Part shown: positions 19,771 through 23,303 of the stretch, one piece after another | How positions within the stretch are numbered: the stretch's first letter is position 1 | Layout of the letters: the number at the start of each line of letters is the position of its first letter | NCBI RefSeq assembly: GCF_014202435.1 | Contig: NZ_JACHGU010000002.1 | Location: 558,001-622,000, forward strand | Direction of reading: 5' to 3' | DNA from: Pseudoxanthomonas broegbernensis | Lineage (GTDB): Bacteria; Pseudomonadota; Gammaproteobacteria; Xanthomonadales; Xanthomonadaceae | DNA: 64,000 bases | Made by a program: the position numbers and the translations under genes | The notes under the pieces: model-generated | Databases searched by the model: none | The model's input: the letters and a program-made list of their open reading frames with translations, nothing else | What the model was told of the DNA's origin: nothing

Positions 19771-20544
19771 ATGCGTTACGCGCTGGGCGTGGAATACGAC
19801 GGCGGCGGCTTCCAGGGATGGCAGGGCCTGGGGCCATCGGGCCCGCCGACCGTGCAGGCCGCGCTGGAACGGGCGCTGTCCTCGGTGGCCGACCAGGCCA
19901 TCACCGTCAGTTGCGCCGGGCGCACCGACGCCGGCGTCCATGCGCAATGCCAGGTCGTGCATTTCGACAGCACCGCCGTGCGCGACCCGCGCGCCTGGAC
20001 CCTGGGCACCACCGGGCGCCTGCCGCCGAGCGTGTGCGTGCGCTGGTGCGTGCCGGTGGCGGGCGACTTCCACGCCCGCTTCAGCGCGCGTGCGCGCCGC
20101 TACCGCTACCGGTTGCTCAACCGCCAGGTGCGGCCGGCGCTGTACCGCCACCTCATGGCCTGGGAGCGGCGTCCCCTGGATGCCGACGCCATGCACCGCG
20201 CCGCGCAGGCGCTGCTGGGCGAGAACGACTTCAACGCCTTCCGCACCGTGCACTGCCAGGCCCCGCATGCGCGCCGCAACCTGCATGACATCAGCGTGCG
20301 CCGGGATGGCGAAGCGGTGGAGATCGAAATCCAGGCCAACGCCTTCCTCCACCACATGGTGCGCAACATCGTCGGCTCGCTGCTGGAAGTGGGAGCCGGC
20401 GCGCAGCCGGAAGCCTGGATCGCGCAACTGCTGGCCGGCCGCGACCGCACCCTGGCCGGGCCGACCGCGCCGCCGCAGGGGCTGGTGTTCCTGCGCCCGC
20501 TGTATCCGCCAGAATGGGGCCTGCCCACGGAGGTGACCCTGTGA
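19771..20544 (+). CDS. truA: tRNA pseudouridine(38-40) synthase TruA
   Basis: 257 residues. TruA isomerises uridines 38-40 of the anticodon arm. The catalytic Asp53 lies in [12 protein letters not shown], and the [12 protein letters not shown] start, the [16 protein letters not shown] segment and [17 protein letters not shown] are all family-typical. It lies 23 bp after fimV, and its stop overlaps the trpF start (GTGA), as in Pseudomonas-type fimV-truA-trpF loci. Confidence 0.96.
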
Positions 20545-21197
20545 CCCGCACCCTGTACCGCACCCGCATCAAGTTCTGCGGCATGACCCGGCCCGGCGAC
20601 GTGCGCCTGGCCGGCGAACTGGGCGTGGACGCGGTGGGCTTCGTCTTCGCCGAAGGCAGTCCGCGCCAGGTCACCGCCATGCAGGCCCGGCAACTGCGCC
20701 TGGCCTTGGCGCCGATGGTGGGCGCCGTGGCGCTGTTCCGCGACAACAGCGCCGCGGAAGTGCGCGAGGTGGTGCGCCAGGTGCGGCCGAGCCTGCTGCA
20801 GTTCCACGGAAACGAGGACGACGCCTTCTGCCGTGCCTTCCGCCTGCCCTGGATGAAGGCCGTGCCGATGGGCGGCGGCGAGGCGTGGGATGCGCGCGCG
20901 CTGCAGCAGCACTGGCCGAACGCGGCCGCCTTCCTGTTCGACAGCCATGGCACCGGCGGTGCCGGCGGCACCGGCCATGCCTTCGACTGGAGCCGCATCC
21001 CCACCGGCCTGCACCGGCCCTTCGTGCTGGCCGGCGGCATCACCGCCGACAACGTGCACGACGCGATCCAGGCCACGCTGCCGTGGGCGGTGGACGTGGC
21101 CAGCGGCATCGAGGTCTCGCCCGGCATCAAGGACGGGGAGAAGATGCGGCGGTTCGTGGCCGAGGTGCGTCGGGCGGACTGCGCGGAGATGGACTGA
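20541..21197 (+). CDS. trpF: phosphoribosylanthranilate isomerase
   Basis: 218 residues in a TIM-barrel. TrpF converts phosphoribosylanthranilate to CdRP in tryptophan synthesis. Motifs: [14 protein letters not shown] with the catalytic Cys near residue 12, GVDAVGFVF, a QFHGNED strand, [13 protein letters not shown] for phosphate binding, and [11 protein letters not shown] chose GTG 20541 because it sits a few bases after an excellent GGAGGTGA ribosome site at 20530-20537 and overlaps the truA stop by 4 bp. In this genome it is separated from trpB by an accessory gap of 1.2 kb plus trpI. Confidence 0.95.
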
Positions 21198-21306
21198 AGG
21201 GCGGGAGCGTTTTGACCGTTTCCGTGTTGCGTGTGACCGGCCGAGATGACTCGCCGGGTCGTAAGTGACGGCTTCCCCTTCGGGTGCCGTCAGGCCCTGT
21301 GCTGTT

Positions 21307-21599
21307 CCCAGACGCGGTTTGCGCTTCCACCATGTTCAGCAGCATGCGCTGCATCTGCCGGCCAGCGGCGCGGAATGCGGCCAACAGGCGCATTTCGTCG
21401 GGGTCATATACAAATTCAACCTCTGCTGCCGGGATGTCGTTTGGGTCAGTGTCATAGGCGATCTGACCACGGCCCGGGCCAGCCATTCAAAGCAAACGCC
21501 CGTCGCATGCGCGATCGCTTCCAGTCGCGAGGTGGCGGACGACGCGCCATGCGGACATTCCCAGTTGGCGACCGCACCCCGGCTGACGCCGATCCTCAA
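21307..21599 (-). pseudogene. remnant of an XRE-type helix-turn-helix repressor
   Basis: On the minus strand, residues reading RIGVSRGAVANWE and then SRLEAIAHATGVCFEWLA are the second half of a phage-repressor-like HTH domain. The coding sense then continues, after a 1-nt frame change near 21480, as GRGQIAYDTDPNDIPAAEVEF and an ArgLeuLeu-rich helix with LLNMVEAQTA. The N-terminal half of the HTH is missing, because similarity stops at 21599 where the bacteriocin-like gene region begins. Truncation plus frameshift indicate a dead gene. It may once have regulated the neighbouring cassette or belonged to a prophage. Confidence 0.65.
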
Positions 21600-21613
21600 T
21601 GATGGAGGGTGTT

Positions 21614-21754
21614 ATGCGTGATCTATGTGTTGAAGAGGTGGATTTTATAAGCGGGAGCGGGATCGCCCATGATGCATTCCACTGGCTCGGCTCATCGGCA
21701 AGAGGGTACTTTAATGCAGGATTGGAGCATGTTTATAACGATCCTTGGCGATGA
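21614..21754 (+). CDS. putative double-glycine-leader bacteriocin/microcin precursor peptide
   Basis: 46 residues, preceded by a GGAGGG ribosome site at 21604-21609. The N-terminal 15 residues, MRDLCVEEVDFISGS, follow the leader pattern of class II microcins and CvaC-like peptides (M-R-E-L-x3-E-V/I-x2-V/I-S-G-G/A/S), with Arg2, Leu4, Glu8, Val9, Ile12, Ser13 and Gly14 in register. Cleavage after Ser15 would release a 31-residue peptide with several aromatic and His residues. The GC content is about 49% by hand count, far below the flanking genes. No C39-peptidase ABC transporter is in the window. The identification rests on the leader, spacing and composition, not on a known mature sequence. 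Confidence 0.5.
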   Translation: MRDLCVEEVDFISGSGIAHDAFHWLGSSARGYFNAGLEHVYNDPWR

Positions 21755-21819
21755 GGTGCTTTGATCTATTAAGGTGTGCGCCAGTGTTGGCGTCCACCTA
21801 TTGTAAAAAAGGATAGATA

Positions 21820-21987
21820 ATGAGAGTTTTATATATATTATCTTGCATTATTGGGGCTTATTTCTTGGTTGATTCAATATATGAGGTTATTTGGAATAAT
21901 ATAATTAACTACTTATATGTTTTGGTTGGTTTTGCTGCGATCATTTCTGGAATCGTCGGGTTGATGAGTATCAGGAATAGCAAATAG
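21820..21987 (+). CDS. small two-helix membrane protein, possible bacteriocin immunity protein
   Basis: 55 residues starting MRVLYILSCIIG. Two strongly hydrophobic helices (about residues 3-26 and 30-50) are joined by an NN turn and end in a short basic RNSK tail. This is the size and topology common among small bacteriocin immunity proteins, but no specific family was recognised. The GC content is 52 of 168 bases (31%) by hand count, and codon choice is AT-rich, unlike every neighbour. That implies recent transfer. An AAGGAT ribosome-site-like sequence precedes the ATG. It lies 65 bp after the peptide gene on the same strand. Confidence 0.5.
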   Translation: MRVLYILSCIIGAYFLVDSIYEVIWNNIINYLYVLVGFAAIISGIVGLMSIRNSK

Positions 21988-22415
21988 GGTTGCTATTATT
22001 TGTGGCGAATCTATGGCGCCCGTCAGGGGCCCGTCATCATTCGGGAGGGCAACGCTCTTCCGTGTGACGGGAGACGGCATGTGCGTGCTCGATGAAGGCG
22101 AGGGGCGATGCGTGCTGCCCCCTTGCGCCAGGGAGATTTCGCATCGACTACATGGACGTATGGATGCGCCCGTTTGAGTCGTGGCCGATCACGGTCGGAT
22201 GATGTTCATGGACTTCCCGATGTTGAAGGCCATGCTTCGTTGTCGTAAGCGACGCACTTATCCCTCGGGTCGGCGTTGGAGACCAGTGATGCTGGTCGTA
22301 GGCCCTGGGCGCTCCTTCCGAATCGTTGCCGGCATCTTCCTCCGCGAGCGAGGACTTCCCGCGCGAAGATCGTGCGATGTGGCGCCATCGTGCGGACCTG
22401 CACAGGTACCGGGCG
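21988..22415. other. accessory gap without a supportable gene
   Basis: GC content rises again from the AT-rich cassette towards trpI. Two CCCGTCA copies at 22019-22037 could pair with TGACGGG at 22067, but the loop is long. A 46-codon frame from 22108 and a 148-codon frame from 22181 lack ribosome sites and recognisable sequence; I regard the stretch as non-coding or decayed. Confidence 0.5.
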
Positions 22416-23303
22416 TCAGTCCTGCAGTTCGCTTCTCAGCCAGCCGGCCAGCGCGGCGACGCGGGCGTCGGCATTCCCGCGCACCGTGCATAGCGTCCAT
22501 TCGGCGCCGGTTTTCACGAAACCCCAGGGTGCGACCAGGCGGCCGCTGTCCAGGTCGGCCTGCACCAGTTCCTGCGGGGCGATGGCCACGCCCAGGCCGG
22601 CGGCGGCCGCTTCCAGCAGGTAGGTGAGGTGGTCGAAGGCGGTGCCCGGGCGCAGGCCGCCGGCATCGAGCCCGCGGGCGGCGAACCAGCGCGGCCAGGC
22701 CTGCGGGCGCGAGACGGTGTGCAGCAGGGGTTCGTCGAGCAGGGCGGCGGCGGGCGCACCGCGCAGCGCCGGGAAGCGGGCATGGCGCGGGCTGAGCACC
22801 GGGCCGATGCGTTCCGGCGCCAGCGCATGCACCTGCCAGTCGGCTGGCCAGGGTGCCTCGCCCAGCAGCAGGGCCGCGTCCATGCCGGTGAGGGCCGCGT
22901 CGAAGCCCCCTTCGTGCGCGGACAGGTGCAGCTTCACCTGGGGCAGGTCGGCCGCCAGCCGTTCCAGCCGCGGGATCACCCAGCGCGCCAGCAGGCTGCC
23001 CGGGCAGCCCAGTACGAGCGCGGCCGGCCGTGCATGGCGGCGCAGGCCGGCCCAAGCGGACTGCAGGCCGGCGAAGGCGTCGCCAGCCGCGTCGCGCAGG
23101 CGCAGGCCGGCGGCGGTCAGGGCCAGGCCGCGGCCTTCGCGCTCGAACAATGGCGCGCCCAACGCGTCCTCCAGCACGCGAACCTGCCGGCTGACGGCGC
23201 CGTGGGTGACGTGCAGTTCCTCCGCGGCGCGGCTCACGCTGCCCAGGCGGGCGGCGGCCTCGAAGGCGCGCAGGGCGTTCAGTGGCGGGAGTTGGCGGGG
23301 CAT
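22416..23303 (-). CDS. trpI: LysR-type activator TrpI
   Basis: 295 residues. The N-terminal winged HTH reads [20 protein letters not shown] with [20 protein letters not shown], the GcvA/TrpI branch of LysR regulators. The effector domain contains [18 protein letters not shown] and [17 protein letters not shown], as I recall from Pseudomonas TrpI. In Pseudomonas, TrpI senses indoleglycerol phosphate and activates the divergent trpBA operon. The divergent position before trpB here, with a T-N11-A palindrome between the genes, supports the same role. Confidence 0.87.

Follow-up and report, generated by a model that had tools for sequence, protein, structure and literature searches.

In the 64,000 nt stretch of the Pseudoxanthomonas broegbernensis genome analyzed here (the window), a 46-codon gene with a strong ribosome site lies between trpF and trpI, and the question was whether this gene, for which a bacteriocin-like precursor peptide with a double-glycine-type leader had been predicted, encodes a bacteriocin that this strain could process and export. 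The gene is likely to be a class II (double-glycine leader) bacteriocin precursor, possibly one of the two components of a two-peptide bacteriocin, left over at an export site located after trpF. Since the export pump of the sister loci is missing at the site, a stranded remnant is the most likely interpretation. The features of the gap and its flanks are compiled in Table 1.

Table 1. Features in and around the gap between trpF and trpI, with positions in the window.
Feature	Position	Strand	Basis
trpF (phosphoribosylanthranilate isomerase), left flank of the gap	20544-21197	+	Pfam PRAI, E 4.5e-41
XRE-family regulator remnant	21310-21599	-	similarity to XRE frames that occupy this place in 9 of 15 sister stretches
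Shine-Dalgarno sequence GGAGGG	21604-21609	+	sequence; 4 bases 5′ of the ATG
46-codon precursor ORF	21614-21754	+	read from the sequence
Double-glycine-type leader, 15 codons, Gly-Ser end	21614-21658	+	matrix scores and profile A6; profile A7 misses the leader
Predicted mature peptide, 31 residues, and stop	21659-21754	+	cleavage site assumed
Stem-loop separating the peptide and membrane genes, without T tract	21772-21799	+	fold of stretch 21755-21815
55-residue hydrophobic protein	21820-21987	+	starts 65 bp after the peptide stop, past the stem-loop
LysR-type regulator, right flank of the gap	22416-23303	-	Pfam LysR_substrate, E 7.1e-25; HTH_1, E 4.5e-23

The gene and its ribosome site are present as predicted, and the LysR-type gene on the right, which adjoins trpB, is trpI by position. 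The 46-residue product is composed of the leader MRDLCVEEVDFISGS and the predicted mature part GIAHDAFHWLGSSARGYFNAGLEHVYNDPWR, the latter being modelled as helical with low confidence (mean pLDDT 64.6). At the cleavage position it carries Gly-Ser, neither Gly-Gly nor Gly-Ala, which is, judged from the sequence, a variant of the predicted double-glycine site. The one promoter-like site detected coincides in part with the start of the membrane gene and scores at chance level. The 46-residue sequence gave 0 matches to Pfam, NCBIfam, PHROGs or PADLOC models. An undescribed peptide family had been suggested; the kind has already been published, predicted class II microcins being given for Xanthomonas in the available text of PMC13174018, whereas the 46-residue sequence itself is most likely new.

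A first matrix for the leader was built from 24 leaders, all from other genomes (one row with a wrong last letter), and with it the window peptide scored 17.3 bits and ranked 1 of the 3680 starts in the window, the next start reaching 6.8. Because 6 of the 24 leaders had come from, or from beside, matches of searches using the window peptide, the matrix was repeated with 18 leaders from loci fetched solely via their C39 or trpF gene. In this independent matrix the peptide again ranked 1 of 3680 (16.5 bits; next, 6.9). A control set of 80 named C39 loci (L150-L229; 1.24 Mb, 73,736 starts) contained 50 starts scoring at least 16.5, none of them in a frame longer than 160 aa, and the reversed sequences, likewise with 73,736 starts, reached 13.3 at best, below the score of the window peptide. 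The assignment of the first 15 residues to a double-glycine-type leader was borne out by this first rank in both matrices, above the reversed control.

A missing leader hit had been named beforehand as evidence against the idea; on this point profile searches of the own genome gave a divided outcome, the leader being matched by profile A6, as by the matrices, and missed by the strict profile A7. Profile A6 (20 rows) had the 46-codon gene as its sole match at E <= 5 (E 8.0e-4), and it is not independent, 7 of its 20 rows tracing to window-peptide searches. Profile A7 (15 columns, from the 18 leaders alone) yielded 0 matches at E <= 5 in the own genome; it is also without a match in G110, and 4 of 6 genomes do match. 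This genome-wide miss is a point against reading the gene as a bacteriocin precursor, and because of it the leader, which is real by matrix, is regarded as atypical; residues Cys 5, Phe 11 and Ser 15, the last at the cleavage position, score -3.2 each in the 24-leader matrix. In the 80 named C39 loci, 71 leader-like starts with highly varied mature parts were found, distributed over 47 loci. Some of these starts sit in betaproteobacterial records. One locus labelled Bacillus subtilis (L200) encodes a transporter 68% identical to a Pseudoxanthomonas one, for which contamination is a possible cause.

In the genus, trpF was found in 16 of 17 genomes, own included, and the region 3′ of it was read in the 15 others. 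A C39 peptidase-ABC transporter follows trpF in 8 of these 15 (G060, G188, G172, G204, G136, G087, G205 and G113; the stretch fetched for G204 ends before trpI), an HlyD-type adaptor in 10 (the same 8 as well as G199 and G202, whose contigs end within the stretch); an antisense XRE gene is seen in 9, of which seven belong to the transporter genomes and the others are G199 and G155. Long exact stretches are shared by G188, G136 and G113 with P. jiangsuensis, P. suwonensis and P. taiwanensis records. Leader peptides are present in 7 of the 15 stretches (G199, G205, G155, G136, G060, G172 and G188) and the mature parts behind them are mostly different; G155 combines XRE gene and leader peptide with no transporter match. 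The spacing of the trpF and trpI matches is 57 bp in G198, 73 bp in G010 and 236 bp in G203 (genome 57% complete, trpF interrupted), and G201 has 3.2 kb after trpF without transporter, adaptor or XRE gene. Four of the 80 named C39 loci, all labelled Pseudoxanthomonas, had matches to trp genes. Pseudoxanthomonas species differ in the gap after trpF, where bacteriocin-type export loci are kept, varied or lost. The bacteriocin-like origin proposed for the window gene is supported by this location at the site of sister export loci, by the leader tests, and by the conserved leaders with varying mature parts in C39 loci.

Three further observations were made in the genus. The transporter of G113 (P. 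taiwanensis; L096:2680-4761) reads EAAEGGLA where the seven others read EAAECGLA, and its peptidase is therefore probably inactive, though the frame is open. In a Pseudoxanthomonas MAG (L161), a C39 transporter is located ~340 bp before trpB on a short contig with no trpI match. Moreover, G203 carries at L131:2464-2984 two neighbouring leader peptides that belong to the same two types, and the 6 kb fetched around them gave neither a transporter nor an adaptor match.

In the window, the XRE remnant lacks ~23 N-terminal residues by comparison of N-termini, its frame is broken near 21474, and the XRE similarity ends within ~10 bases of the ribosome site of the peptide. In a simple reading, a deletion would have removed the start of the XRE gene, the divergent promoter and the adaptor, ending just short of the peptide gene. 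The stretch with the stem-loop behind the peptide gene has a fold z of -3.71, with 0 of 200 shuffles as stable; a repeat element was ruled out for this stem-loop, which has a single copy in the genome with <=3 mismatches allowed. An additional stable stem-loop without T tract is located after trpF (21256-21297; stretch 21255-21310, fold z -2.37) and may control read-through from trpF into the peptide gene. No convincing match to transporter remnants was obtained in 21988-22415. Among the tblastx matches listed against G199 were pieces of 22-38 residues (grouped E 9e-6), which span ~1.8 kb in G199 versus 0.3 kb in the window and with this differing spacing were judged unconvincing as a transporter remnant.

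The search for export genes covered the own genome, a 99.99% complete draft in 32 contigs. It gave 0 matches to the C39 peptidase, the control search being positive in 8 of 14 genomes; of the 198 family genomes, 128 gave C39 matches, among them every one of the 8 other genus members sampled. None of the 41 ABC matches in the own genome (four best frames read) covers the C39 part of the query, and no close HlyD-type adaptor was found, partial matches only being obtained (best E 1.6e-7). The C39 peptidase-ABC transporter that characterizes the class, and whose absence from the genome had been named beforehand as evidence against the idea, was not found in this strain. Because there is neither a C39 match nor an ABC match over the C39 part, export is unsupported here, and the export role given to the gene in the original prediction was not sustained; neither processing nor export of the peptide is expected in this strain. 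If the locus were intact, the precursor would be guided by its leader to the C39 peptidase-ABC transporter with its HlyD-type adaptor, and the leader would be cleaved off behind its last residue of glycine type; the mature peptide, a predicted helix, would target the membrane of related bacteria and presumably kill them, and the small membrane protein, here the 55-residue protein, may protect the producer. We infer a partner peptide as well as an order of losses.

The DNA of the 55-residue gene has ~27% G+C, and the protein was modelled as one long helix from the single sequence. It matched no Pfam model at cut-off (DUF308 weakly, E 0.0042), none in NCBIfam and PADLOC, and PHROGs weakly. When it was used as query over the 198 family genomes, 19 gave matches at E <= 1, own included (next best E 0.022), and these were judged unconvincing, most frames being long. 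Immunity proteins of two-peptide bacteriocins can be membrane proteins of 42-55 aa, as stated in the available text of PMC6957408, and by position, size and hydrophobicity the 55-residue protein is probably a candidate for such a putative immunity role.

For the peptide itself, the 46-aa query over the same 198 genomes gave matches in 55 at E <= 1. Most of the places matched lie inside long frames and were judged to be chance, and the best match after the own gene (L002, E 0.024) was discarded as a relative, the surrounding frames being unlike the peptide. The match L005 in G110 was kept; the G110 peptide is 41% identical over 37 residues (E 2e-7, one comparison), the match being leader-driven, and it precedes a CPBP-type membrane protein (Pfam Rce1-like), a type linked to bacteriocin immunity in the same available text of PMC6957408, with a second leader-like peptide upstream. 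The G110 locus is incomplete, because its C39 transporter is cut short (frame of 302 residues; query 18-275, ~258 residues, matched) and no adaptor was matched on its 16 kb contig, and it is possibly another decaying locus (L062:1187-3181). A search of the genome contigs with profile A1, from which own-genome records may have been left out, matched 95 stretches, of which 0 were confirmed. Variable mature parts, whose absence from relatives had been named beforehand as evidence against the idea, were found behind conserved leaders, whereas a close relative of this exact 46-residue peptide was not found in these searches.

More complete loci were present in P. helianthi (adaptor, two adjacent leader peptides, small membrane protein and transporter) and in S. 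pavanii and G349 (transporter, adaptor and paired peptides). The mature part of the window peptide is matched best by the second P. helianthi peptide, with a score of 31 that was reached by 0.8% of 3000 shuffles and exceeds all 71 other mature peptides (best 28), six comparisons having been made; in the other five, 11-39% of shuffles reached the score. Judged by these alignments, kinship of the mature parts appears moderate at best, and weak outside P. helianthi.

Adjacent peptide pairs, in P. helianthi, G110, S. pavanii and G349, raise the question of a two-peptide system. The lactococcin G alpha model was weakly matched by 3 of 5 relatives (S. pavanii 2.9e-4, G110 0.073, G349 0.077), with no match for the P. 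helianthi and Root630 counterparts, and the partner from P. helianthi, the one partner given to the beta model, matched it at 0.0064; all alpha and beta matches were under the cut-off. The S. pavanii peptide also matches the BlpC model (0.0076), ten mature parts alone gave 0 matches to family models, and the window peptide matched no two-peptide family model. With profile A4 (seven relatives) the PDB entry 2jpj, lactococcin G alpha, was obtained at E 0.4 as fourth of five rows, unrelated proteins ranking above it, and the single PDB match of the partner profile is an unrelated protein. A Gly-x-x-x-Gly register is kept in 6 of 6 aligned relatives; its first Gly is Phe in the window peptide, in whose sequence looser SxxxG and GxxxA steps are readable. 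No second leader peptide was present among the high matrix scorers of the window, and a genome-wide partner search, run without positive control, was empty. These data fit a half-system in decay and are a lead, not proof.

Several other explanations were weighed against a stranded bacteriocin precursor. A chance open frame without biology is disfavoured as highly improbable: the frame is short, with no promoter above chance, no close relative and the A7 miss, but its leader score lies beyond the matrix controls, and it has a ribosome site and a position at an export-locus site. That the peptide is in use as a bacteriocin or a signal, with a transporter encoded elsewhere in the genome doing the processing and export, would agree with the open precursor frame, ribosome site and downstream membrane gene and with the many ABC ATPases indicated by the 41 matches; in view of the C39 domain and close adaptor that were not found and of the ABC matches that do not extend over the C39 part, it is improbable.

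Two further explanations overlap with the preferred one. It is possible, if doubtful, that the peptide is silent debris and that only the 55-residue protein matters, serving as orphan immunity to the bacteriocins of those sister species in which a locus persists. The missing transporter and adaptor, the broken regulator, the two small frames that stayed open and the known immunity proteins of this size agree with this, whereas the protein has no convincing relative in the 198 family genomes and the attacker is not known. A tentative and rather unlikely alternative is that peptide and membrane gene form a cassette acquired later into an emptied site instead of an ancestral remainder, as the low G+C content of the cassette (down to 27%) and the peptides differing between species at the site would suggest; against this, the gap contains no repeats of >=14 bases, no long integrase-type frame was noticed in the ORF listing of the window, and on its left the cassette directly adjoins what remains of the XRE gene from the old locus. 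With the stranded precursor as the preferred reading, the window locus is an apparent decay intermediate, in which the 55-residue gene may have been kept for orphan immunity. Beyond this, a speculative and on balance improbable extension is that xanthomonads carry an unnamed lactococcin G-like two-peptide family whose cassettes are swapped at export loci, one of them after trpF, and that the window shows an ex-producer which has lost export, partner and regulator and kept one half and the immunity gene, a step from producer to merely immune. If the likeness to lactococcin G is true, Gram-negative xanthomonads harbour relatives of the two-peptide bacteriocins, a class best known from lactic acid bacteria. 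Of most interest are the site of export loci behind trpF and this possible family.

Among known systems, the class II microcins of the colicin V type (CvaC, CvaA, CvaB) are similar by description in the same 15-residue register of a double-glycine-type leader, and the sister loci likewise carry a C39 ABC transporter and an HlyD-type adaptor. In contrast to the colicin V type, the mature part in the window has merely 31 residues and no model match, and neither transporter nor close adaptor was found. As in lactococcin G and enterocin 1071 (class IIb), some relatives of the window peptide are paired, with weak model matches, but the hosts are Gram-negative and no partner was found in the own genome. 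The RaxX-RaxSTAB system of Xanthomonas, in the available text of PMC6637879, likewise has a double-glycine peptide, an adaptor and a C39 transporter between core genes and was gained and lost between species; the likeness is one of description, not of sequence, and the core-gene site is different. Of the papers searched, none joined double-glycine leader, bacteriocin and Xanthomonadaceae, and among the matches listed for Pseudoxanthomonas and bacteriocin, none concerned such a locus by title and start of the abstract. From the same bacterial family, a Blp-family bacteriocin gene of Xylella is described in the available text of PMC11885251, where neither ABC nor immunity genes were found in association with it; that gene is highly expressed and has a prophage-related setting, whereas the window gene is located in the trp gap.
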